From Paraburkholderia phenazinium (GTDB lineage: Bacteria; Pseudomonadota; Gammaproteobacteria; Burkholderiales; Burkholderiaceae): DNA of 64,000 nt. The position numbers and the translations under genes are program-made. Below the pieces are notes generated by a model, which was given only the letters and a program-made list of their open reading frames with translations, was not told the DNA's origin and did no database searches. Location of the stretch: positions 2,914,001 through 2,978,000 of the forward strand of contig NZ_FSRM01000002.1 in the NCBI RefSeq assembly GCF_900141745.1. Direction: 5' to 3'. Below are positions 1,359 to 21,948 of the stretch, one piece after another (position 1 is the stretch's first letter; each line of letters starts with the position of its first letter).

Positions 1359-3811
1359 GTCACGACGACGATCTGGGCCGCCGGTCATTGCTCGACCTGT
1401 TCCGCGAAGAAGCGCAGACGCAAACGCGCGTGCTGTCCGGCGGCCTGCTTGCGCTCGAACACACACCGGACGATGCCTCGCAACTCGAGGCCTGCATGCG
1501 CGCGGCACACTCGCTGAAGGGCGCGGCGCGCATCGTCGGCCTGCAGGATGGAGTGGATATTGCGCATGTGATGGAGGAATGCTTCGTGGCCGCGCAGCGC
1601 GGCACGCTGGTTTTGTCGGGCGCGCATATCGACGAACTGCTCCGCGGAGCCGACCTGTTGCTGCGCGCCGGCAACGACGATCCGGCGGCCGCGTTGACGC
1701 GAGCGGAAGTGGACGCATTCGTGACCCGGCTCACCGCGTACGATGCGACTGAGGCTACGGCAACGAACGAGGCGCACCGTACGCACGCAGACATCGCGGC
1801 GGGCTCGCCGTGGGGCGACACCTATGCCGCTCCCGAGGAACCGGACGAAGACGCGACGATGCGCGCTGCACTCGCTATCCTCGGCGTCGAGGTTGCCAAA
1901 CTGCCAGTCAGCCTTTCCGACGACGCAGCGCCGGCCGTGCAAAATCTTGCCGCCGAAGCGCCTGCGGCAGAGCCTTCCTTCGCACCGACACCCGAGCCCG
2001 CACCGTTGCGTCCGTCCAGCCCCGACGTCCCACGCGACACCCCGCTAAACGTCCACGGCCCACGCGACCCCGAGCGCATGCTGCGGGTGCGCAGCGATAA
2101 TCTCGACCGGTTGCTGAGCCTGTCCGGCGAATCCCTCGTGGAATCGCGCTGGCTGAAGCCGTTCGCGGAGTCGCTGCTGCGCGTCAAACGCACCCACCGC
2201 GATGCAGCGCGCGCGCTCGACACCTGTTTCGAATCGTTAGCAGAACGTCTCGATCCGCAAGCGCTGGCAGCGCTCGACGCCGTGCGGCAAACCCTCGGCA
2301 CAATGCAGCATCTGCTGGCGACGCGCATCGACGAACTCGACCGGTTCGATCGCCGCAGCTCGCACCTCGCGCAGCAGCTATACGACGAGGCGCTGCAATG
2401 CCGCATGCGGCCATTCGGCGACGCGACCCACGCCTATCCGCGCATCGTGCGCGATCTCGCCCGTTCGCTCGGCAAACGGGTACGCTTTTCGATCGTGGGC
2501 GAATCGACGCAGATCGATCGCGACATCCTCGACATGCTCGACGCGCCGCTCGGCCATCTGCTGCGCAACGCACTCGACCACGGCGTCGAAACGCCCGAAC
2601 AACGCCTCGCAGATGGCAAGCCGGCTGAAGCAACGTTGACCCTGGAAGCCCGCCATAGCGCGGGCAAGCTGCTCATCAGCGTGAGCGACGACGGCGCGGG
2701 TGTCGACCTCGACGCGGTGCGCGCGGCCGTCGTCAAGCGGCAGTTGGCCGACCCGGAAACGGCCGCACGCCTGTCGGATCACGAGTTGCTCGACTTCCTG
2801 CTGCTGCCGGGTTTTTCGATGCGCACCGAGGTGACCGATGTTTCCGGACGCGGCGTCGGTCTCGATGCCGTGCACGAAATGGTCAAGGCCGTGCGCGGCA
2901 CGGTGCGCATCGCGACCGAACCCGGCCGCGGCACGCGCTTCGTTCTGCAGTTGCCGCTCACGCTCTCGGTAATCCGCAGCCTGCTCGCGGAGGTCGGCGG
3001 CGAAGCCTATGCGTTCCCGCTCGCACACGTGCGCCGTACGCTGGAGCTGGCCCGTGGCGACATCAATATGCTCGAAGGACAACAGCATTTCGCCTTCGAC
3101 GGCCGGCCCGTCGGGCTCGTCACCGCGCACCAGTTGCTTGACACCGAGGCCCCCGCCGAAGTGCGCGCCAATGTGCCGGTGGTGGTGATCGGCGACGATC
3201 GCGGCACCTATGGCGTGGCGGTGGACCGTTTCCTCGGCGAGCGCATGCTGGTGGTTCAGCCGCTCGACAGCCGCCTCGGCAAGGTCAAGGACATCGCGGC
3301 CGGTGCGCTGATGGAAAACGGCGAAGCGGTGCTGATCGTCGACGTCGACGACCTGCTGCGCTCGGTCGACAAACTCGTGCGCGGCGGGCAGCTCGACAAG
3401 GTGCAGCGCGCCCAGGGCGTCGCCGCACGCACCCGCAAACATGTGCTGGTGGTCGAAGACTCGCTGACAGTGCGCGAACTGGAGCGCAAACTGCTGGAAA
3501 AGCGCGGGTATACGGTGACGGTGGCAGTGGATGGCATGGACGGCTGGAACGCGCTGCGCAGCACCCATTTCGATCTGGTCGTGACCGACATCGACATGCC
3601 GCGCATGGACGGCATCGAACTCGTCACGCTGATCAAGCGCGACACGCTGCTAAAAACGGTGCCCGTGATGATTGTGTCGTACAAGGATCGCGACGAAGAT
3701 CGCCGCCGGGGGCTCGATGCCGGCGCAGACTACTATCTGGCAAAGGGCAGCTTTCACGATGAAGCATTGCTCGACGCGGTGCACGACCTGATCGGAGAAG
3801 CGCACACATGA
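1355..3811 (+). CDS. wspE: WspE, CheA-type hybrid histidine kinase with receiver
   Basis: An 818-residue hybrid kinase. Domains in order: an Hpt domain near residues 10-120 with the phosphoacceptor motif AAHSLKGAARIVG; an Ala/Pro-rich linker; a CheA dimerisation and HATPase region (HLLRNALDHGVETPEQR as N box, VSDDGAGVD and DVSGRGVGLD as G boxes); a CheW-like regulatory domain; and a C-terminal receiver (VLVVEDSLTVRELE, phospho-Asp in VVTDIDMPRMDG, Lys in IVSYKDRDEDR). WspE phosphorylates WspR and WspF. Both ends overlap neighbours by 4 bp (ATGA), so it is tightly coupled to wspD and wspF. Confidence 0.9.
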   Translation: MSHDDDLGRRSLLDLFREEAQTQTRVLSGGLLALEHTPDDASQLEACMRAAHSLKGAARIVGLQDGVDIAHVMEECFVAAQRGTLVLSGAHIDELLRGADLLLRAGNDDPAAALTRAEVDAFVTRLTAYDATEATATNEAHRTHADIAAGSPWGDTYAAPEEPDEDATMRAALAILGVEVAKLPVSLSDDAAPAVQNLAAEAPAAEPSFAPTPEPAPLRPSSPDVPRDTPLNVHGPRDPERMLRVRSDNLDRLLSLSGESLVESRWLKPFAESLLRVKRTHRDAARALDTCFESLAERLDPQALAALDAVRQTLGTMQHLLATRIDELDRFDRRSSHLAQQLYDEALQCRMRPFGDATHAYPRIVRDLARSLGKRVRFSIVGESTQIDRDILDMLDAPLGHLLRNALDHGVETPEQRLADGKPAEATLTLEARHSAGKLLISVSDDGAGVDLDAVRAAVVKRQLADPETAARLSDHELLDFLLLPGFSMRTEVTDVSGRGVGLDAVHEMVKAVRGTVRIATEPGRGTRFVLQLPLTLSVIRSLLAEVGGEAYAFPLAHVRRTLELARGDINMLEGQQHFAFDGRPVGLVTAHQLLDTEAPAEVRANVPVVVIGDDRGTYGVAVDRFLGERMLVVQPLDSRLGKVKDIAAGALMENGEAVLIVDVDDLLRSVDKLVRGGQLDKVQRAQGVAARTRKHVLVVEDSLTVRELERKLLEKRGYTVTVAVDGMDGWNALRSTHFDLVVTDIDMPRMDGIELVTLIKRDTLLKTVPVMIVSYKDRDEDRRRGLDAGADYYLAKGSFHDEALLDAVHDLIGEAHT

Positions 3812-4812
3812 ACATCGGCATCGTCAACGACCTGCCGCTTGCGGTCGAAGCCATGCGCCGCGCGATCGCGTTGCGGCCGGAGCATCGCGTGCTCTGGGTC
3901 GCCACCGACGGCGCCCAGGCCGTCGACTTCTGCGTCGCCCAGCCGCCCGATGTGGTCCTGATGGACCTGATCATGCCGAAGTTCGACGGCGTCGAGGCGA
4001 CCCGCCGCATCATGGCCCAGGCGCCCTGCCCGATCCTCGTCGTGACGAGCAGCGTTGGGGCGAACGCATGGCGCGTCTACGAAGCGATGGGTGCCGGCGC
4101 ACTCGATGCAGTCGACACACCGACGCTCGCCGATCACCACCTCGCCGATGCGTCGCAGCCGTTGCTCGCGAAGATCGACCAGATTGGCCGCCTGCTCGAG
4201 AAGCCGGTGGTGACGCCCACGCCACGGGCCGCCGCAGCCGCCTCGCGCGGCGCGGCCCCGTTGATCGCGATTGGCGCTTCCGCCGGCGGCCCGGGCGCGC
4301 TCGCCGCGGTACTCGGCAAGCTGCCGGCCAATTTCGGCGGCTCCATTGTGATCGTGCAACACGTCGACAAGGCATTTGCCGAAGGCATGGCCCAATGGCT
4401 CGACAGCCAGACAGAACTGCCGGTGCGTGTAGCCGTGAGCGGCGATCGTCCCAGGCCCGGCGAGGTCTTGCTGGCCGCGACCAACGACCACCTGCATATC
4501 GCGCGCAGCGGCTCGCTCGATTACATCAGTGAGCCGGCCAGCACGCCCTATCGCCCTTCCGTCGATGTGTTTTTTCACAGCGTGGTCGAGCACTGGTATG
4601 GCAACGCGATCGGCGTGCTACTGACGGGCATGGGCCGCGACGGCGCAATCGGCCTGAAGGCGATGCGCGCGAAGGGCTACCTCACGATCGCGCAGGACGA
4701 AGCGACCAGCGCGGTCTACGGCATGCCGAAAGCCGCGGCCGCGCTCGATGCGGCGAAGCGGATCTTGCCGCTAGGCAGCATTGCAGGAGAACTGATGGCA
4801 AGCATTAAATGA
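3808..4812 (+). CDS. wspF: WspF, CheB-type methylesterase response regulator
   Basis: A 334-residue protein with an N-terminal receiver (MNIGIVNDLPLAVEAMRR; phospho-Asp in VVLMDLIMPKFDG) joined by an Ala-rich linker to a CheB methylesterase domain. The catalytic residues are visible: Ser in IGASAGGPGAL, His in IVQHVDKAF and Asp in LTGMGRDGAIG. WspF demethylates WspA and so damps the pathway. Loss of WspF in pseudomonads gives constitutive c-di-GMP production and wrinkly colonies (known for the family). Its start overlaps the wspE stop by 4 bp and wspR follows after 27 bp. Confidence 0.9.
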   Translation: MNIGIVNDLPLAVEAMRRAIALRPEHRVLWVATDGAQAVDFCVAQPPDVVLMDLIMPKFDGVEATRRIMAQAPCPILVVTSSVGANAWRVYEAMGAGALDAVDTPTLADHHLADASQPLLAKIDQIGRLLEKPVVTPTPRAAAAASRGAAPLIAIGASAGGPGALAAVLGKLPANFGGSIVIVQHVDKAFAEGMAQWLDSQTELPVRVAVSGDRPRPGEVLLAATNDHLHIARSGSLDYISEPASTPYRPSVDVFFHSVVEHWYGNAIGVLLTGMGRDGAIGLKAMRAKGYLTIAQDEATSAVYGMPKAAAALDAAKRILPLGSIAGELMASIK

Positions 4813-4839
4813 TGATGGGGATTTGCGAAGCGTATTGGC

Positions 4840-5988
4840 ATGAATGGCAACACACCCGTGACGCGAGCTTGCGACACGGGTACGAACACGGGTATCAACA
4901 TGGCAAATAATCAGTCTGGCTCGCCTGACCAGCAAGCCGCAGCAGCCTCCGCAACCGACGGCGCCGATGCGACGCTCGAAGCGGCACGCAGGACGCTGCA
5001 AACACCGCCTGCGGCGGAACAGCCGGTGATGGTGCTGCTGGTCGACGATCAGGCGATCGTCGCCGAGGCGATCCGGCAGGCGCTCGCGGGCGAGGACGGT
5101 ATCGACTTCCATTACTGCGCGCGCGCCGATGAGGCCATGAAGGCCGCCGTCAACACGCGGCCGACGGTGATCCTGCAGGATCTCGTGATGCCCGGCATTG
5201 ACGGCCTGACGCTCGTCAAAGCCTATCGCGCGACGCCCGCTATCCGTGATGTGCCGATCATCGTGCTGTCGACCAAGGAAGAGCCGGTCATCAAAAGCGC
5301 AGCCTTCGCGGCAGGGGCGAACGACTATCTCGTCAAGCTGCCGGACCGGATCGAACTGGTCGCGCGCATCCGTTATCACTCGCGCTCGCATATCAATCTG
5401 CTGCAGCGCGACGAGGCATATCGCGCGCTGCGCGAATCGCAGCAGCAACTGCTCGAAGCCAACCTCGAGTTGCGGCGGCTCACGCATTCCGACGGCCTGA
5501 CCGGCTTGTCGAACCGCCGTTACCTCGACGAGTATCTCAGCGCCGAATGGCGCCGCGGCGCACGTGACCAGAGCGAAATGTCGTTCCTGATGATCGACGT
5601 CGACAACTTCAAGCTCTACAACGACACGTATGGCCACGTGGCAGGCGACGAAGTGCTCAAGCAGATTGCCGCAACTGTGGAAGCCTGCCTCGGCCGTCCT
5701 GGCGACCTGGCCGCGCGCTTCGGCGGCGAAGAGTTTGCGGTGGTGCTGCCGGGGACGCCGCTCGGAGGCATACGCACCCTCGCGGAAAAGATTCGCAGCC
5801 AGGTGGAGGCGTTACAGGTGCCACACGCGAATTCGTCGACGGGGCAATATGTGACGATCAGTATCGGCGGGGCATCCGTTGTTCCAAGCGCAGAGTCGCC
5901 GATGACTTCATTGATCGAGGCAGCGGATCTGGCCTTGTACAAGGCGAAGCGCGACGGCAAGAATCTGGTGGTGCTGACGGGGGATTGA
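4840..5988 (+). CDS. wspR: WspR, receiver-GGDEF diguanylate cyclase
   Basis: A 382-residue output protein of the Wsp pathway that makes c-di-GMP from two GTP. A receiver spans about residues 63-180 (VLLVDDQAIVAEA, phospho-Asp in ILQDLVMPGIDG, Lys in PIIVLSTKEEP), then a short helical stalk, then a GGDEF domain with an intact active site ARFGGEEFAVVLPG. The product-inhibition I-site RxxD (RPGD) lies five residues before GGEEF. The N-terminal 60 residues are low complexity; an alternative ATG at 4900 would give a more compact protein. A small hairpin follows the gene. Confidence 0.9.
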   Translation: MNGNTPVTRACDTGTNTGINMANNQSGSPDQQAAAASATDGADATLEAARRTLQTPPAAEQPVMVLLVDDQAIVAEAIRQALAGEDGIDFHYCARADEAMKAAVNTRPTVILQDLVMPGIDGLTLVKAYRATPAIRDVPIIVLSTKEEPVIKSAAFAAGANDYLVKLPDRIELVARIRYHSRSHINLLQRDEAYRALRESQQQLLEANLELRRLTHSDGLTGLSNRRYLDEYLSAEWRRGARDQSEMSFLMIDVDNFKLYNDTYGHVAGDEVLKQIAATVEACLGRPGDLAARFGGEEFAVVLPGTPLGGIRTLAEKIRSQVEALQVPHANSSTGQYVTISIGGASVVPSAESPMTSLIEAADLALYKAKRDGKNLVVLTGD

Positions 5989-5991
5989 TAC

Positions 5992-6016
5992 GGTGGTGGG
6001 CAACGGCCTCACCACC
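5992..6016. terminator. Possible hairpin terminator between convergent wspR and heme monooxygenase genes
   Basis: GGTGGTG at 5992-5998 pairs with CACCACC at 6010-6016. It sits between two convergent stop codons, where a bidirectional terminator is expected. There is only a short T run, so it may be weak. Confidence 0.35.
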
Positions 6017-6025
6017 TTCGGCGTG

Positions 6026-6340
6026 TTACTTCACCGTCTGGATGACTTCGAAGCCTTCGAATTCAGGGTGCCCGAGATACAACGAACGGGTTTCCCCTCC
6101 TGCGTTGCGGTGCGCCGCGCGGAATGCATCCGAACTGGTCCAGCCTTCGAATGCCGCATGATCGGCCCAGACCGTGTGGCTGGAATACAGCACATGGTCC
6201 TCTTTCCGCGGCCCTCGCAGCAGATGAAATTCGATGAAGCCCGGCACGTCTTTCAGATGCGTGTCCCGGCTCGTCCAAAGCGTTTCGAACGCGCTCTCTG
6301 AACCGAGAGCGACTTTGAAACGGTTCATCGCGATGTACAT
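6026..6340 (-). CDS. IsdG-type heme-degrading monooxygenase / ABM-domain protein
   Basis: A 104-residue protein of the antibiotic-biosynthesis-monooxygenase fold. The start at 6340 is chosen because GAGGGA lies just upstream; the frame continues further 5' without a better start. The three residues that form the IsdG/IsdI heme-oxygenase triad appear at near-identical positions: Asn6 (MYIAMNRF), Trp67 (FEGWTSS) and His77 (FRAAHRNA). This suggests oxidative opening of heme to release iron, rather than a generic ABM protein. It stands alone between convergent wspR and the HU gene, with no heme transport genes in view. Confidence 0.7.
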   Translation of the reverse strand: MYIAMNRFKVALGSESAFETLWTSRDTHLKDVPGFIEFHLLRGPRKEDHVLYSSHTVWADHAAFEGWTSSDAFRAAHRNAGGETRSLYLGHPEFEGFEVIQTVK

Positions 6341-6471
6341 GATGGATTCCCTCGGATCGGACGCGGTTTCGTAGCCCATTGCACGCATGCGTGGACAACA
6401 AGCCGTAAGAAGCGGACCCAGAAACGGGCTCGCCGCGCCAGCTGACCAGCGTGCCGTGAGCCCGCAAGCGC

Positions 6472-6509
6472 CGCGCAGCGCCTCCCCTGTGGGGGTGGCT
6501 AGCTGCGCG
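6472..6509. terminator. Stem-loop after the HU gene
   Basis: CGCGCAGC at 6472-6479 pairs with GCTGCGCG at 6502-6509, with an inner CCCC/GGGG pairing. It lies 15 nt beyond the HU stop codon on the minus strand. It lacks a T tract, so it may be an RNA-stabilising or weak termination structure. Confidence 0.35.
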
Positions 6510-6524
6510 GGATCGACGGAGCGA

Positions 6525-6803
6525 TCAGGAGGCGTTAACCGCGTCCTTGAATGCCTTGCCGGCGACGAACTTGACCGTCTTGGCTGCGGCGATCTGGATT
6601 TCCGCGCCGGTTGACGGATTACGGCCGACGCGCGCTGCGCGCGAACCGGTCGAGAAGGCTCCGAAGCCGATCAGCTGAACGGTTTCGCCCTTGGACACTG
6701 CGCTCGTCACCGCTTCGATGATCGCATCGATCGACTTGCCGGTGGCCGTTTTGCTTTCGCCCGTCGCAGCCGCAACTGCGTCAATCAGTTCCTGCTTGTT
6801 CAT
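6525..6803 (-). CDS. hup: HU-family DNA-binding protein
   Basis: A 92-residue histone-like protein that matches bacterial HU along its full length. It begins [18 protein letters not shown], has the GxGxF turn ([10 protein letters not shown]) and the DNA-binding arm with the conserved [12 protein letters not shown] stretch, and ends [15 protein letters not shown] bends and compacts DNA as a dimer. The gene is monocistronic, with AGGGATG upstream of the ATG. Whether it is the alpha or beta paralogue cannot be told from the sequence alone. Confidence 0.95.
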
Positions 6804-7270
6804 TGAACATCCCTTTCTGTATTGATAGAACCAGCGCCTTCAAACAGCGCCAGACCCGCCACCCTACCTCATCCAGGCGCTTCTGCGCAAACCCCCGGAC
6901 CCTTGATTGCCCGGCCGCACGCGCCTTCAGCAGGTTACGACAGGCCGGCGGCCGGCTCAGTTCCCAGCTTCTGGAAGCCCTGTTTAGGGGCATCTGGACG
7001 CCTTGGAGGCGGCCGGGGTGGGCTGCCAGGCCACCTTGCATCACGTCGTGAAAGCGCGTCACACGTGGATTTTCGGCGTTGTTTAGTGGGTTTTCGCCGA
7101 AGTTCCGCTCTGCACAGCCTTACCCCGTCTTACGCTAACGGGCCGCCAGCCAAGCCGGCGTGAGGCGTCCGACGAGGTTTCGCACCGTCCCGAAGACGCA
7201 GCCCCGGTCAAATTGCCAAGTAAAATAGTCGAATAAACAGTTTTATAACGGGTTCATAAAAGGTTGCAGT
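6804..7270. other. Intergenic region between divergent HU and polB genes
   Basis: About 467 bp without a supported gene. It must hold the HU promoter (minus) and the polB promoter (plus). The AT-rich stretch at about 7210-7262 is the likely polB promoter area. A stem TTCGGCG (7072-7078) / CGCCGAA (7095-7101) is visible. I see no CTGT-N8-ACAG LexA box before polB, although polB is SOS-controlled in Escherichia coli. Confidence 0.5.
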
Positions 7271-9637
7271 GTGGTTCAACAACAGCAGGGTTTCCTTCTG
7301 ACCCGACATTGGCGCGACACGCCGGCTGGCACAGAAGTCGACTTCTGGCTGGCGACCGCGAGCGGTCCGCACCACTTGCGCCTGCCGCCCCAGACGTCGG
7401 TGGCGTTCATTCCGGCCGAGCAGCGCGAGCTCGCCGAACGGGTATTGCGCAACGAACGCCAGTTCGAACTCCGCCCCCTAGCCCTGAAAGATTTTCATCA
7501 GCGTCCGGTTCTTGGGCTGTACTGCCGTCAATATCGCCAGTTGCTCAAGCTCGAAAAGCAGTTGAAGGAGTATGGCGTCGACGTCTACGAGGCGGACATC
7601 CGTCCGCACGAACGCTATCTGATGGAGCGCTTTATCACGGCGCCAGTCTGGTTCGGCGGCGAGCCGGATGGCGAAGGCCGCTGGCTCAACGGCGAGATGA
7701 AGCCGGACACCGCTTATCGTCCGGCGTTGAAGCTGGTCTCGCTCGATATCGAAACCACCGCGCACGGCGAGTTGTATTCCATTGCGCTGGAAGGCTGCGG
7801 GCAACGTCAGGTGTATATGCTGGGCCCAGCCAATGGCGATGCCAGCGGGCTCGACTTCGATCTCGAGTATTGCGAAAGCCGCGCGCGCTTGCTGGAGAAA
7901 CTCAACGAATGGACCGAACGGCACGATCCCGATGCGATCATCGGCTGGAATCTGGTGCAGTTCGATCTGCGGGTCCTGCAGGAGCATTCGCAGCGTTATG
8001 CCGTACCGCTGCGCCTCGGGCGTGGCGGCGACGTGATGGAGTGGCGTGAACACGGCGGCAAACAGAACCATTTCTTTGCCGCGGCGGCCGGGCGTTTGAT
8101 CATCGACGGCATCGAAGCGTTGCGCTCCGCGACCTGGAGCTTTCCAAGCTTCAGCCTCGAATATGTGGCGCAGGAGCTGCTGGGCGAAGGCAAGGCTATC
8201 GACAATCCGTATCAACGCATGGCGGAAATCGATCGCCGCTTCGCCGAAGACAAGCCAGCGCTCGCACGCTACAACCTGAAGGACTGCGAACTCGTCACGC
8301 GGATCTTCGCCAAAACCGAGCTGCTGACGTTCCTGCTGGAACGGGCCACGGTGACCGGGCTGGCCGCGGACCGCAGCGGCGGATCGGTGGCCGCCTTCAC
8401 ACACCTGTACATGCCGCTGATGCACCGTCAGGGCTATGTGGCGCCCAACCTCGGCGAGATTACCGAGGAAGCCAGCCCCGGTGGCTTCGTGATGGATTCG
8501 CAGCCCGGTCTTTACGACTCCGTGCTGGTGCTCGACTATAAAAGCCTCTATCCCTCGATCATCCGCACGTTTCTGATCGATCCCGTGGGGCTCGTAGAGG
8601 GAATGAACAACCCCGATGAAAGCGCGTCCATCGTAGGCTTTCGCGGTGCGCGTTTCTCACGCAGCAAGCACAGTCTGCCCGCTATCGTGAGTCAGATCTC
8701 GCTAGGGCGCGAAGCCGCAAAACGGCAAAAGAACAAACCGCTGTCGCAGGCGCTGAAGATCATCATGAATGCGTTTGCCGGCGTGCTCGGATCGAGCGGC
8801 TGCCGCTTTTTCGATCCACGGCTCGTGTCGTCCATTACGATGCGCGGCCACGAGATCATGCATCGCACCCGCGAGCTGATCGAGGCGAGAGGCTACCAGG
8901 TCATCTACGGCGACACCGATTCCACCTTTGTGTGGCTAAAGCGGGCACGCTCCGAGGAACAGGCGGCGCAAATCGGCCGCTCGCTCGTCAAATACGTGAA
9001 CGAATTCTGGCGCGAGCACCTGCAGCAGACGTTCGGCCTTGAGAGCTCGCTTGAATTGCAGTTCGAGACGCACTACCAGCGCTTTCTGATGCCGACCATC
9101 CGCGGCGCCGAACAAGGTAGTAAAAAGCGCTATGCGGGACTCGTCGCCAAACCGGACGGCAGCGAGGAAATGGTCTTCAGGGGACTCGAGACCGTGCGCA
9201 CCGACTGGACTCCGCTCGCCCAGCAATTCCAGCGGCAGCTCTATCTGCGCATCTTCAAGCGGCAGCCGTATCAGGACTTTGTGCGTGACTACGTCGAACG
9301 CACCGTGAGCGGAGAGTTCGACGAGTTGCTCGTGTATCGCCGGCGACTGCGCCGCAATCTCGAGGAGTACCGACGAAATGTGCCGCCGCATGCGCGCGCT
9401 GCGCGGATGGCCGACGAGTTCAACCAGCGGCAAGGACGACCGCTGCAGTATCAGAACGGCGGCTGGATCACGTATGTGATGACGGTGGCGGGTCCCGAAC
9501 CGCTGGAGACCCAGCGTTCCGCGATCGACTACGACCACTATCTGACGCGCCAGCTACAACCGGTAGCCGACGCAATTCTGCCGTTTATGAACGACGATTT
9601 TGCTACCTTGATGACAGGGCAGAAGGAGTTGTTTTAA
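7271..9637 (+). CDS. polB: DNA polymerase II, family B
   Basis: A 788-residue family B polymerase of typical Pol II length. The 3'-5' exonuclease motifs are intact: [11 protein letters not shown] (Exo I), [11 protein letters not shown] (Exo II) and YNLKDCELV (Exo III). Polymerase motifs are also intact: [14 protein letters not shown] (A), [20 protein letters not shown] (B) and [11 protein letters not shown] (C). Pol II takes part in replication restart and translesion synthesis. The GTG start at 7271 is chosen for the AAAGG seven bases upstream. It stands alone and is followed by a small hairpin. Confidence 0.95.
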
Positions 9638-9641
9638 CAGG

Positions 9642-9667
9642 CGTGGCAGATGAGACCCGCCACGTTT
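9642..9667 (+). terminator. Possible polB terminator
   Basis: CGTGGC (9642-9647) and GCCACG (9659-9664) can pair just after the polB stop, followed by TTT. It is a short stem and is called with low confidence. Confidence 0.3.
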
Positions 9668-9691
9668 GATCGGGATGCGACGGCGTACCTC

Positions 9692-10345
9692 TCACCGCCA
9701 CGCCAGAATCGGCCACGCCGCTTGCCCTGCGTAAGTCCGCAACGCGGCGTCGGGATTCACCGCGTGTGGCCTCGTCACCTTCTGCAGCAGCGGCAAGTCG
9801 TTGCGCGAGTCGGAGTAGAAACTCGCACCATCGAGGTTTTCGTGGCCGGCGCTCAACCACTCGTCAAGTCGAATGACCTTGCCCTCGCGATAGGTCAGCG
9901 TGCCGCGCGTACCGCCCGTGTACGTTCCGTTGTCCGTCGCCAGTTCGATCGCAAGCACCTCGGCGATCCCCAACCGCGCCGCGATCGGGCGCACAAGGTG
10001 ATCACCGGAGGCGGAGATCACCAGCAGCCTGTCGCCCTGCATGCGGTGCCCGTCGACGGTACGCCGCGCATCGCCATAGATGCGCGGCTCGATGACTTCG
10101 TCGACGAATGCCTCGACGAGCAACGCCACTGCGCTGACCGTACGCCCTTTGAGCGGCGCGAGACTAAAAGCCATGTAATCTTCCATGGCCAGTTTGCCCT
10201 CGCTATAGGCGCTCATCAGCGCATCGTTTTCACGCATGAACGAAGCCCGGTCCACCCAGCCGAGCGAGCACATCCGCTCGCTCCACAGGCTCGCGCAGTC
10301 ACCGTTGATCAGCGTCTCGTCAAGATCGAAAATCGCCAAAGCCAT
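9692..10345 (-). CDS. HAD-IB family phosphatase (SerB/CicA-like)
   Basis: A 217-residue haloacid-dehalogenase-superfamily hydrolase. Motif I is FDLDETLI with the nucleophile and acid/base aspartates, motif II is VISASGDH, and motif IV is YSDSRNDLPLL. An alpha-helical C1-type cap lies between motifs I and II, as in the HAD-IB group that contains phosphoserine and phosphocholine-type phosphatases. It starts 25 bp after the symporter stop on the same strand, so it is probably co-transcribed. In a cluster with two choline-kinase-like enzymes, a small phosphomonoester substrate is plausible but not shown. Confidence 0.8.
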   Translation of the reverse strand: MALAIFDLDETLINGDCASLWSERMCSLGWVDRASFMRENDALMSAYSEGKLAMEDYMAFSLAPLKGRTVSAVALLVEAFVDEVIEPRIYGDARRTVDGHRMQGDRLLVISASGDHLVRPIAARLGIAEVLAIELATDNGTYTGGTRGTLTYREGKVIRLDEWLSAGHENLDGASFYSDSRNDLPLLQKVTRPHAVNPDAALRTYAGQAAWPILAWR

Positions 10346-10369
10346 CGAATTGCCTTTGAGTGAATGGAT

Positions 10370-17966: not shown

Positions 17967-18009
17967 TTTTATGCGGGGATGGCTGGAAGGGGTGAAATGG
18001 CCGGTGAAC

Positions 18010-18079
18010 TGTCGGGTGACACAGAAAGTGAAAACTGTGCGAGGTAAGTGAAAAACTGCTGACACGGTTAGTGAAAAAT
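18010..18079 (+). mobile_element. Left end of a putative IS21-like element (terminal repeat plus three internal boxes)
   Basis: TGTCGGGTGACAC (18010-18022) forms a 12 of 13 inverted match with GTGACACCCGACA at 21818-21830. Just inside it are three copies of an AGTGAAAA box (18027, 18047 and 18070). A terminal inverted repeat followed by several internal subterminal boxes is a hallmark of IS21-family ends. No istA or istB gene follows; three SDR genes and a TetR gene occupy the interior. No clear target duplication is visible. Confidence 0.55.
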
Positions 18080-18144
18080 CCGGGCGGCGGCCCTTATGCG
18101 TGTAGCGGGACGCGGAGGTCGGGTAAGGCAAAGTCCTGTTCAGT

Positions 18145-18891
18145 CTAGACAGCCGTCAGGCCGCCATCGACCGGCAGGTCGATGCCGGCGACGTAGCTGC
18201 TCTCATCGGAGGCCAGGAATAAAGCTGCAGAGGCGATCTCCTCGGGGCGCGCCAAGCGTGCCAGAGGCGTCATCGCTGCGATTTGGTTTCTCGCTTCGGC
18301 CGCGCCCTCTTTGGATGGGAACTGGTCGTCGAACATGGGTGTGTCGACCGCGCCAGGGCTCAACACATTGGTCCTGATCTTCCGTTCCTTGAGTTCGCTG
18401 GTCCACGTCCGGGCAAATGACCGGAGCGCTGCCTTGGTGGCGCTGTAGGTGCTGCGGCCCGGAAGGCCTTTGTTCTTCCCGGCGGACGCCACGAGGATGA
18501 TGGAGGCACCATCATTCAGGAAAGGCAGCGCCTTTTGAACGGTGAAATAAGTGCCGCGAGCGTTGGTGTTGAAGGTCTTGTCAAAATGCTCAGGTGTCGC
18601 CGCAGCGGTCATCGTCTTTTTGACGAAAGCCGCGCCCGCAAAAATCACATCGATCTTCCCTTTTTTCGCGACGGTCTCGTAAAGACGGTCGAGGTCATCG
18701 AGCTTGGCGATGTCGGTCTTTACGCCGGTGACGTTCGAACCGATCTCCGCGACGGCCTTGTCGAGTTCGGCCTGTCGGCGGCCGGCAATAAAAACGTAGG
18801 CACCCTCTTCAACAAACCTCTTTGCGGTCGCGAGGCCGATGCCGCTGCTACCCCCCGTGACGAGGGCGATCTTGTTTTTCAATAAAGACAC
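18145..18891 (-). CDS. SDR-family oxidoreductase (cargo gene A)
   Basis: A 248-residue classical short-chain dehydrogenase. The cofactor motif is VTGGSSGIGLATAKR, and the active site has the catalytic Tyr-Lys pair in RSTYSATKAALRSF and a Ser in ASAGKNKG. The C terminus is the usual SSYVAGIDLPVDGG. A GTG start at 18891 is preferred because AAAGGGG precedes it at good spacing; an upstream GTG in frame has no such site. It is probably NAD(P)H-dependent with an unknown substrate. It follows a second SDR gene by 41 bp, so they are likely co-transcribed. Confidence 0.85.
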   Translation of the reverse strand: MSLLKNKIALVTGGSSGIGLATAKRFVEEGAYVFIAGRRQAELDKAVAEIGSNVTGVKTDIAKLDDLDRLYETVAKKGKIDVIFAGAAFVKKTMTAAATPEHFDKTFNTNARGTYFTVQKALPFLNDGASIILVASAGKNKGLPGRSTYSATKAALRSFARTWTSELKERKIRTNVLSPGAVDTPMFDDQFPSKEGAAEARNQIAAMTPLARLARPEEIASAALFLASDESSYVAGIDLPVDGGLTAV

Positions 18892-18932
18892 TGTTGTCCC
18901 CTTTCGGTTGAAACGTGCGGCCTGCACCGCGT

Positions 18933-19679
18933 TCAGACTTGCGTCCAGCCGCCATCGACCGGAAGCTCGGCGCCGGTCGTGAAGGTCGCGTCGAACGCGA
19001 GGAAGAGGACGGCCTTGGCGATTTCCTCCGACGTACCGAAGCGCTTCATGGGAATAATGCCGAGGGTGTGCCCCTTGACCTGTGTACGCATCTCTTCCGT
19101 AGGGAATACCTTTTCGAGGATGCCCGTGTCGATGGGGCCGGGCGACACCGCGTTTACGCGGATCTCCTGAGGAAGCAGCTCGGTGGCGAGCACCCGGGCG
19201 AATGACCGCAGCGCAGCCTTGGCGGCTCCGTATGTAGCTTGGCCCGGCAGCCCCTTGACGTTGGCGACGGAGGTCGTGAGGACCACAGCGCCTCCTCGAT
19301 TGATCAGCGGCGCGAGCTTCTGGACCGCGAAAAAGGGGCCCTTGGCGTTCAGGTTGAACATCTCGTCGTAGACGGCTTCGGTCACGCTCCCGAGAGGCGT
19401 TGGAATGCTGAACCCGGCGTTGACGAAAAGCAGGTCGATGGCGTCGAACTCGGTCTTCACCTGGGCGGCAAGGGCGTCGATGTCGGTCAACGACCGCGCG
19501 TCGCTCGAAACCACGATAGCGCCGTCCCCAAGCTCTTGCTGCGCCGACTCCAGGCCGGCCTGCGAGCGGCCGGTCACCAGAACACGCGCGCCCCCGTCGA
19601 GCAGCATCTTCGCTGTCGCGAGCCCCATGCCACTCGTGCCGCCGATAATCACCACCTTTTTATCCTGGTACCGGTTCAT
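18933..19679 (-). CDS. SDR-family oxidoreductase (cargo gene B)
   Basis: A 248-residue classical SDR similar to its neighbour. The cofactor site is IIGGTSGMGLATAKML, the active site is TSVANVKG with QATYGAAKAALRSF, and the C-terminal motif is TGAELPVDGGWTQV. The ATG at 19679 has AAGGAG upstream. The shared RSFARxxxxEL stretch after the active site in genes A and B points to a tandem duplication followed by divergence. It lies first in a two-gene unit with gene A. Confidence 0.88.
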   Translation of the reverse strand: MNRYQDKKVVIIGGTSGMGLATAKMLLDGGARVLVTGRSQAGLESAQQELGDGAIVVSSDARSLTDIDALAAQVKTEFDAIDLLFVNAGFSIPTPLGSVTEAVYDEMFNLNAKGPFFAVQKLAPLINRGGAVVLTTSVANVKGLPGQATYGAAKAALRSFARVLATELLPQEIRVNAVSPGPIDTGILEKVFPTEEMRTQVKGHTLGIIPMKRFGTSEEIAKAVLFLAFDATFTTGAELPVDGGWTQV

Positions 19680-19720
19680 ATGTATTCTCCTTGAGAGGTT
19701 GAGGCTGCTTTGCTGATATT

Positions 19721-19744
19721 TAACTATTTTGTACAACTATTTAT
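19721..19744. promoter_or_regulatory. AT-rich promoter/operator candidate before SDR gene B
   Basis: The stretch contains the palindrome TTGTACAA (19729-19736) and a direct repeat of AACTATTT. It lies upstream of the SDR B start and may bind the TetR regulator encoded in the same cassette. Confidence 0.35.
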
Positions 19745-19839
19745 TTCAAAATACCGTAAGACCCGTGGACGATCATGTAACTCCGCAATCGCCTGCTGAT
19801 TCTGATCACCGCAACCATTTCGCCGCGACCGCCGCTCCT

Positions 19840-20814
19840 TCAGGACACCGCGCGCAAGGATTCCGCGTATGACCAGTTGACGCCAGAGACGTTGACGACG
19901 GCCTGCCACGCGGCTTCCTGGTTGGCGCCATCGTGGAGGTGCGGTTGGCGCTGCGGCTCAATCGGGCCTGAGAACTTCCCTTGAGCCGAGGCGAAGAATT
20001 GCCCTGAGACGTCGGTTCCGAACTCCGACGCCTGGAGGTACCGACGGGCCGCGGTCTCCGGCGTCTGATTCATGCCAGGAATGAGGTTCGCGATTGGGAT
20101 AAACAGATACTTCACGGCCAGGCCAGCTTGTCGCGAAACATTGGTAGCGGTCGCGGCACCGGGCGAGACAGCGTATACGGCCATGCCGGAGGGTAGCCGG
20201 CGCGCCAGCGCCGCGACCCACCAGGCGACGATGAGCTTCGCGTCGGCATACGCATTGTTGGGCACGTACCTCACGTTCGGCCCGTTGCGCAACAGGGCTT
20301 CCATAGCAGCGGTCAGGTCGCCCTGGTGGTACTTGGCAGCGAGTGCGTCCACGTCGGTGTACTTGAACATGGGTACGCCCCCTCGGGCAGGCTCCGCGCT
20401 GGCAATAACAATCCGCGCGTTGGGGCTCAGCAGGTTGGCGCGGAGCAACCCGACAGTCAATTGATGATGGCCGATGAGCGGGGCCTGAGATGCCTCGACG
20501 CCCTCCGCAGTGATCACGCGCGCCTTGCCAGGGACCATCCCGGCGTTGAGCAGTAGGAAATCGACCGGCCGACCTTGTTTGATCAGCTCGGCGAGCGCGG
20601 ACTGGACGCTGGCCGGCGTGTCCAACTCCAGCTCCAGCGGCGTGAAGACCTGTCTTCGGGTTTCAGCTGCGAGTTGAGCGGCCGCTTCCTTGGCCCGAGC
20701 CAGACTGCGTCCGGTGATGATGATCTCGCGCCAGCCCTCTCCGGCAAGAATGCGAGCTGCGGCATAGCCGAGCCCGGAGGTGGCGCCGGTGACGAGTGCG
20801 ATCGAATGTTCCAC
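19840..20814 (-). CDS. SDR-family oxidoreductase, longer form (cargo gene C)
   Basis: A 324-residue SDR of the retinol-dehydrogenase/protochlorophyllide-reductase-like size. It has VTGATSGLGYAAARIL at the cofactor site, LLLNAGMVPG (the NAG motif), a Ser in VIASAEPARGG, and the active-site Tyr-Lys in NNAYADAKLIVAW. It faces away from the TetR gene across a 129-bp promoter region, the classic arrangement of a regulator and its target. Substrate unknown. Confidence 0.85.
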   Translation of the reverse strand: MEHSIALVTGATSGLGYAAARILAGEGWREIIITGRSLARAKEAAAQLAAETRRQVFTPLELELDTPASVQSALAELIKQGRPVDFLLLNAGMVPGKARVITAEGVEASQAPLIGHHQLTVGLLRANLLSPNARIVIASAEPARGGVPMFKYTDVDALAAKYHQGDLTAAMEALLRNGPNVRYVPNNAYADAKLIVAWWVAALARRLPSGMAVYAVSPGAATATNVSRQAGLAVKYLFIPIANLIPGMNQTPETAARRYLQASEFGTDVSGQFFASAQGKFSGPIEPQRQPHLHDGANQEAAWQAVVNVSGVNWSYAESLRAVS

Positions 20815-20886
20815 AGGTATCTCCGTGCGGTGAAGGGTGAAGGCCGAGTCGTGAGGCCCCGCAGGGCCAGAAACGGCTTGTTAATT

Positions 20887-20904
20887 TAGAACTATTCGGT
20901 TATA
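20887..20904. promoter_or_regulatory. Candidate TetR operator in the SDR C / TetR divergent promoter
   Basis: TAGAAC-N6-GTTATA is an imperfect palindrome (5 of 6 half-site matches) in the AT-rich space between the divergent SDR C and TetR genes. TetR-family repressors commonly bind such sites between themselves and their targets. Binding is inferred. Confidence 0.4.
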
Positions 20905-20943
20905 TATTGGTGCCGTAAAAGTTGTCAAGGAGTTTTGAACCAA

Positions 20944-21558
20944 ATGATTCAAAATACCACCAGGCCCGTGGGCCGACCGCGCAGCTTCGACGAGACGGGG
21001 GCGCTGGAAAAGGCGATTCAGGTGTTCTGGTCGAAAGGCTACGACGGAGTGACGATTGACGATCTCGTCGCCGGGATGGGTGTGGGACGACCGAGTCTGT
21101 ATGCCGTCTTTGGGGACAAGCGGACGATATTCTTGCGCGCCCTTAAGGTGTACGCAGAACGGAAGGGCGCATCAGCCGCGAAGGCACTCCTCTCACCACA
21201 GGGTCTTCGCGACTCGATCACGGGCTTTCTGAGGTACGCCGTCGAAAGTGCGACCGAGAAAGGGTCCGCCCGGGGCTGTCTTCTGATATGCGTCGCGCCG
21301 CTTGTGGACGACCCTGAGGTTCGTCAGTTCCTGCAAAACGCGGCCGCTGGTGGCACTGCACTGGTGGAAGGTCGTTTCCGGGACGCAATCAACGCGGGAG
21401 AAATCCCGTCCGACTTTCCTGTGGCCGTCCGCGCAGGCCAGCTCACTGATCTTGCGCGCGGCCTTACCATGCGTGCGCTGATAGGCACGCCGCGCAAGAC
21501 GCTTCTCAGGGATGCTGAGGAAGCGGCCGACCTGGTGCTCCTGCCGCGGCGCGTCTGA
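20944..21558 (+). CDS. TetR/AcrR-family transcriptional regulator (cassette regulator)
   Basis: A 204-residue TetR repressor. The N terminus has GRPRSFDETGALEKAIQVFW and the HTH VTIDDLVAGMGVGRPSLYAVFGDK. The C-terminal ligand-binding part is helical with a Cys-containing segment (GCLLICVAP). The ATG at 20944 is preferred; a TTG nine bases upstream is too close to the AAGGAG site. It probably controls the divergent SDR C gene and perhaps SDR A and B. Inducer unknown. Confidence 0.88.
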   Translation: MIQNTTRPVGRPRSFDETGALEKAIQVFWSKGYDGVTIDDLVAGMGVGRPSLYAVFGDKRTIFLRALKVYAERKGASAAKALLSPQGLRDSITGFLRYAVESATEKGSARGCLLICVAPLVDDPEVRQFLQNAAAGGTALVEGRFRDAINAGEIPSDFPVAVRAGQLTDLARGLTMRALIGTPRKTLLRDAEEAADLVLLPRRV

Positions 21559-21698
21559 CGGGTTATCGCAAAAAATTCACTGAGAAATGACCACGACAAC
21601 AGACATGAGCGGCGGACCCGGGGCGTATCGTCGTCCGATGAACAAAGTGGCGACGTGGTCTATCGACTCCAAGCGCGCCGATGAGAACACAACAGTTT

Positions 21699-21830
21699 TT
21701 TTCACTTACTGCGGCAGTACGGGACGGATATTTCACTTTCCTTAGCACGTGCTGGTTGCTCGACGCCAATCTTGCTGAAAAATCGCCTTAACTTCAACGA
21801 CGCATTTTTCATTAATGGTGACACCCGACA
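21699..21830 (-). mobile_element. Right end of the putative IS21-like element
   Basis: Read on the minus strand, the outer repeat TGTCGGGTGTCAC (21818-21830) is followed inward by AATGAAAA (about 21804-21811), AGTGAAAT (21730-21737) and AGTGAAAA (21699-21706). This mirrors the left end at 18010-18079 in inverted orientation and bounds a segment of about 3.8 kb. The rest of the 390-bp gap between the TetR gene and amtB shows no coding sequence. Confidence 0.5.
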
Positions 21831-21948
21831 CGAGCGTTACGCGAAGCGCTGCAGTGAAGTAAAAACAAAAACGCCGGTAGCGGCCCAATCAGGCCAGATC
21901 TACCGGCGCAACTTGCGAGCCTGAGGTAATCAGGCGAGTCGGTGCCGC

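Follow-up and report, generated by a model that had tools for sequence, protein, structure and literature searches.

The ends of IS21-family insertion sequences carry TGT termini and several subterminal boxes. In passages of PMC10293859, IstA and IstB of IS21 are treated as relatives of TnsB and TnsC, and similar end layouts are therefore expected in IS21 and Tn7-like transposons. Transposase-free gene parcels are already known for Tn3: according to passages of PMC6304161, the Tn3-family mobile insertion cassettes of Xanthomonas hold passenger genes between full ends and need the transposase of a related transposon. Here we describe positions 18010-21830 of a 64-kb stretch of Paraburkholderia phenazinium DNA (the window; part of contig G000:C2, in a genome of 8.3 Mb and two contigs). 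They constitute a bounded mobile element of 3,821 bp, which is non-autonomous and Tn7-like rather than IS21-like. It is very probably a natural 'mini-Tn7' that is moved in trans, the equivalent of a mobile insertion cassette.

The element starts with TGTCGGGTGACAC at 18010-18022 and finishes with its inverse copy, with one mismatch, at 21818-21830, a terminal repeat already noticed in a first-pass annotation of this DNA. Taken alone, this 13-mer occurs at chance level with up to three mismatches (22 matches versus 19.3 expected). The box AGTGAAAA occurs 36 times in the window when one mismatch is allowed (22.8 expected), and its four exact copies all lie within the element ends, at 18027, 18047 and 18070 on the plus strand and at 21699 on the minus strand. 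Chance is excluded for the end repeats because cross-genome matches start or stop at the element boundaries. A 191-base query over the left boundary produced matches in 9 of 59 genomes, including its own, most of them starting at 18010 or a few bases from it; as for the right boundary, two matches stop at 21830, one at 21825, and a fourth is internal. Positions 18010 and 21830 are therefore the true ends of one unit. Both termini are inverted and start with TGT. The left end (18010-18087, plus strand) contains three close-set boxes about 20 bp apart, and the right end, of about 150 bp (21682-21830, minus strand), contains boxes set further apart, near 21806, 21730 and 21699, as well as a reversed one, indicating that the ends are asymmetric. 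The earlier description of three boxes per side, inverted between sides, thus fits the left end but has to be amended for the right one, with its wider spacing and its additional reversed box.

The first-pass annotation had proposed looking for an empty site in sister strains and had seen no obvious target duplication. Contig G144:C331, from an incomplete assembly (86%), carries both window flanks joined without the element, with identities of 94% and 92%; the 31 bases between the two matches replace the last 36 bases of the window left flank, where the alignment is poorer. Aligned to the joined flanks, this contig reads ...CGACGATGAGCGTTACG..., and the window reads ...CCGGTGAAC, then the element, then CGAGCGTTACG.... 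The simplest reading is that the original target was probably TGAGC, duplicated at insertion and later altered by one substitution per copy, to TGAAC on the left (18005-18009) and to CGAGC on the right (21831-21835). A 5-bp duplication thus exists, overlooked because each copy carries one substitution.

Models of the ends were used to examine their distribution. The left-end model matched 53 of 144 same-genus genomes (one per species; E <= 0.01), with 86 places listed, some of them weak or decayed. Across the order it matched 17 of 399 genomes, own included, in 13 of 158 genera, and the right-end model matched 4 of the 40 genomes searched. Named records with matches are Paraburkholderia madseniana, P. 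sediminicola, P. dioscoreae and one Acidovorax. A phage origin was also considered and rejected: there was no exact pattern match in viral contigs, and phage records gave only short, chance-level matches. The genome of the window contains a second, decayed left end (G000:C1:4108453-4108526). Several left ends share their upstream flanks across genomes (L082/L083/L088/L098, L027/L087/L093 and L085/L091/L092), and these groups represent either old, vertically inherited insertions or further preferred sites.

We analysed in detail 78 left ends (20 found first, 42 from the same-genus search and 16 from the order search), covering around 55 of the 86 same-genus places and omitting L029 and L030, which are short copies of the L019 and L068 sites. 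Right ends were sought within 18 kb, using models trained without the locus's own group. This resulted in 18 left/right pairs, counting the tandem L075 twice, of which 10 showed exact 5-bp duplications and two showed duplications with one mismatch; shuffled pairings yielded a mean of 0.72 duplications and a maximum of 6 in 20,000. Pairs without a matching duplication are those of the window (2 mismatches), L031, the inner L075 pair, L076, L090 and L183. Outside this search, two further exact duplications were found in G025 (GGCCG; split over two contigs, with one element assumed) and G220 (GCTCC).

The interior of the element was annotated correctly from the start. Pfam matches identify two SDR-family oxidoreductases (18145-18927, PF13561, 2.3e-57; 18933-19736, PF13561, 1.3e-56) and a third SDR-family protein (19840-20814, PF00106, 4.5e-17), all on the minus strand, and a divergent TetR-family regulator on the plus strand (20935-21558, PF00440, 5.5e-11). 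Only these SDR and TetR proteins are encoded, with no Pfam match to TnsABC/TniQ or to istA/istB; the absence of TnsABC/TniQ makes the element non-autonomous, as originally proposed, with cargo in place of the transposase genes. An amidase gene lies on one side of it and an ammonium transporter gene on the other.

Elsewhere, the same ends enclose other cargo, and complete relatives hold unrelated genes. Among these are a catabolic operon of 11.3 kb that encodes acetaldehyde dehydrogenase and aldolase (L016); a 13.1-kb island after gyrB with type I restriction and kinase genes, an IS6-type transposase adjoining hsdM, and a serine recombinase (L074); transporters with a pyridoxal phosphate enzyme (L077); a glycosyltransferase as sole cargo (L083 and L098); and three small elements within one genome, G141 (L071-L073). 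On plasmid pI of P. dioscoreae (L031, 5001-6640) the only cargo is a Shedu nuclease, the left end being intact and the right one degraded. In the tandem L075 (reverse strand, 1928-10352), whose cargo includes ABC transporter and LysR genes, two elements abut with no spacer and one exact duplication, CCAGC, encloses both, as if they had moved as a single unit. No TnsA, TnsB (Mu-transpos_C), TniB, TniQ or IstB family match (Pfam, E <= 1e-5) was found in 49 of the 61 open reading frames of at least 100 amino acids from 13 relatives; the other 12 were not scanned (two in L016, two in L068, three in L075, and one each in L071, L072, L074, L077 and L079).

The SDR/TetR interior itself occurs at five loci in five species: the window, L068, L079, L263 and L264. 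Blocks of 1.7-2.9 kb are 89-90% identical in the last four, and further blocks are 82-88% identical. The 2-kb flanks of the five loci showed no mutual similarity, L263 and L264 being compared by the right flank only. Both ends and an exact duplication are present at L068 and at L079 so that, with the window, three of the five loci have both ends. Additionally, one genome (G141) has L071 and L072 at two sites with different exact duplications, and the two share 97% identity over 1,087 bp, with another 228 bp at the right end matching at 91%. These comparisons suggest that the SDR/TetR interior probably moved as a transposase-free unit. They also bear on the possibility that the window holds a degenerate Tn7-like element, inserted by its own machinery and later deprived of its tns genes, with no movement in trans. 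This would agree with the lack of cognate tns genes in the genus sample and with the decay of many left ends, but it fits poorly with similar tns-free interiors at five unrelated loci of five species, three of them with both ends, and with two near-identical copies in one genome with different exact duplications. It would need separate deletions, each sparing the ends; because repeated loss of tns after insertion would have to spare them every time, movement in trans is the simpler account, and we consider degeneration in place very unlikely.

Outside the genus, ends of this type are found with tnsA-tnsB-tnsC-tniQ. G220 contains a complete 20.4-kb element (L187; G220:C6 133448-153870) with both ends and the duplication GCTCC, holding cargo genes, an XRE-like regulator, tnsA, tnsB, tnsC and tniQ. 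In G294 (L185), an XRE-like regulator comes after the left end, and behind it lie TnsA (PF08722, 4.6e-12), TnsB (PF09299, 1e-6), TnsC (PF05621, 1.9e-27) and two TniQ, the second clear (1.2e-11) and the first under the curated cut-off. The G220 tnsB (a 660-aa frame, with a stop upstream of it by coordinates) is 49% identical to that of G294 and was the best match to the G294 TnsB query after G294 itself, among 399 genomes with up to two candidates scored in each. Compared with solved TnsB proteins, it matches PseTnsAB (1.3e-63), Tn6677 (6.2e-53) and Tn7 (1.5e-21). In both L185 and L187, tnsA points inward from the left end, indicating that the left end of the window element (18010-18087) is the counterpart of the tnsA-proximal, or Tn7 'right-type', end. 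In a third genome, G260, 11 bases separate the end of gyrB from a left end that fits the model weakly and is followed by tnsABC-tniQ; the right end was detected solely via the abutting next left end. At this locus (G260:C1:330050-350847; L259 and L184), the far end of the tns-bearing element abuts a second left end, and the five bases in front of the tns-bearing element recur as the first five of the second one, giving the duplication TGTAG. On our reading, the tns-bearing element appears to be a newcomer that landed precisely on the end of an older element already in place; around 850 bases in between are unread.

The position of the G260 element next to gyrB is recurrent. In 18 of the 78 loci the left end is preceded by a gyrB match, at a distance of 5-34 bp (once 81); six of these loci come from the same-genus sample, one is the Acidovorax record and 11 belong to the order sample. 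No gyrB match was found in the 22 right flanks available (up to 2.2 kb each). Judging from these positions, gyrB is a candidate homing site for elements with these ends. The words gyrB and gyrase are absent from the main texts of Faure 2023 (PMC10293859) and Benler 2021 (PMC8649781), and we recognised no report of Tn7-like homing at gyrB among the matches listed (best 10 of 160 for Tn7 plus gyrB), supplements being outside this scope; the gyrB passages seen in PMC12452197 concern phylogeny.

These relatives also speak to the first-pass annotation's assignment of the ends to IS21, with mobilisation by IstA/IstB. A non-autonomous IS21-family element could show the same TGT termini and repeated subterminal boxes, and IstB-profile matches are common in these genomes. 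However, such ends bound tnsABC-tniQ in other genera and recur after gyrB, an adjacency that is Tn7-like, and among 30 IstB-profile loci (ten genomes, 1.5-kb flanks) no such end appeared below E 1.9, although some of these are not IS21 genes and the flanks may miss the istA-side end. G116 contains the intact L068 with its exact duplication, yet just two weak IstB-profile matches (6.6e-9 and 7.6e-4, in frames of 635 and 815 codons). Likewise, the ends read for three istAB pairs (L032, L035 and L175) differ from those of the window. At L175, an istAB pair, recognised by eye and not by Pfam, forms an insertion sequence nested in a gyrB-adjacent element of the present type (duplication ATAGC); the insertion sequence has subterminal repeats of its own, which are different. 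We thus abandon the IS21 assignment as extremely unlikely.

We also considered that the element is moved by a diverged Tn7-like operon of the host, and not by a visiting autonomous sibling. The genome of the window contains two such operons, L274 (G000:C2, 709-717 kb) and L275 (G000:C2, 1803-1810 kb), each encoding TnsB-, TnsC- and two TniQ-like proteins, and the first also TnsA- and TnsD-like proteins; the TnsB of one of them matches that of Tn7 itself best (7.7e-50), and TniQ matches were present in 11 of the 12 genomes tested. However, 13 stretches (12 around TniQ matches and one adjacent), those around the two operons included, showed no such ends (best E 0.18), making this source of transposase rather unlikely. 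Other candidate partners were examined and discarded. The same-genus TnsB homologues, up to 41% identical to that of L185, have no matching left end nearby; at L221, around 27 kb from one of them, a right end is matched but the left-end match is weak. The stretches around tniABQ-like modules in G139, G066, G025 and G017 contain no such ends.

Several observations weigh against the idea that an autonomous relative mobilises the element in trans. All three tns-linked cases come from other genera, and none of the 144 same-genus genomes yielded an element that combines these ends with tns genes of its own. In the same-genus lists, no TnsB lies within 60 kb of a listed left end on the same contig (the nearest, 27% identical, is at 63 kb in G141), with up to eight candidates scored per genome and diverged TnsB being missed. 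Also unfavourable to a host operon, G000 is without a TnsB like those paired with these ends, although the PF09299 search missed both of its operons and absence by this profile is weak evidence. The G294 contig ends before any right end is seen, and the G260 left end is weak (E 0.023). No right end was found within 18 kb for 60 of the 78 left ends, which decayed copies and contig ends explain in part. At L263 and L264, the 10-11 kb beyond the right end contain no left end, and the two loci may be fragments. The right ends used for training were initially chosen partly by matching duplications, others by profile alone. Finally, the window copy is away from gyrB and its duplication is decayed, so it may be immobile.

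Despite these points, a mini-Tn7 mobilised in trans remains our preferred explanation. Both ends would be arrays of predicted TnsB-type binding boxes. An autonomous relative would provide TnsA, TnsB, TnsC and TniQ of the matching type in trans; this machine would excise the element and reinsert it, creating a 5-bp target duplication, with the SDR/TetR module travelling as cargo. The element holds cargo between transposon ends, lacks a transposase and has a cognate transposase in relatives, which corresponds to the concept of a mobile insertion cassette. We recognised no report of a transposase-free family with Tn7-like ends among the matches listed (best 12 of 141 in one listing). The chances are about even that a more general process operates in the Burkholderiales, including Paraburkholderia: a cassette-like exchange by mini-Tn7s with TnsB-type ends, in which cargo would be freely swapped and elements stacked in tandem, moved in trans by rare autonomous siblings homing to the 3' end of gyrB, with non-autonomous forms displacing autonomous ones in the genus. 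Surveys of Tn7-like transposons based on transposase genes would overlook elements reduced to their ends. The cargo of complete elements includes genes for defence, catabolism and regulation, and the end models offer a direct means of finding such gene parcels.

Compared with the IS21 family, the window element differs in its end sequences, judged by the three istAB pairs read, in having no istAB of its own and in the recurrent gyrB-adjacent insertion of its relatives. Unlike Tn7-like transposons, it has no tns genes, and neither do the scanned proteins of its complete same-genus relatives; a further difference is the insertion beside gyrB, a word found in neither main text, that of Faure 2023 or that of Benler 2021. 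Conversely, TGT termini, asymmetric multi-box ends and a 5-bp duplication are shared with the Tn7-like transposons Tn7, Tn6677 and Tn6022, where the comparison draws in part on general knowledge of Tn7. The same applies to the tnsA-tnsB-tnsC-tniQ arrangement of the autonomous relatives and to the location of the tnsA-proximal end beside the candidate homing gene. With the Xanthomonas cassettes, as characterised in passages of PMC6304161, the window element shares passengers between ends, the lack of transposition enzymes and, very probably, the reliance on the transposase of a related transposon, and differs from them in possessing Tn7-like instead of Tn3-family ends.

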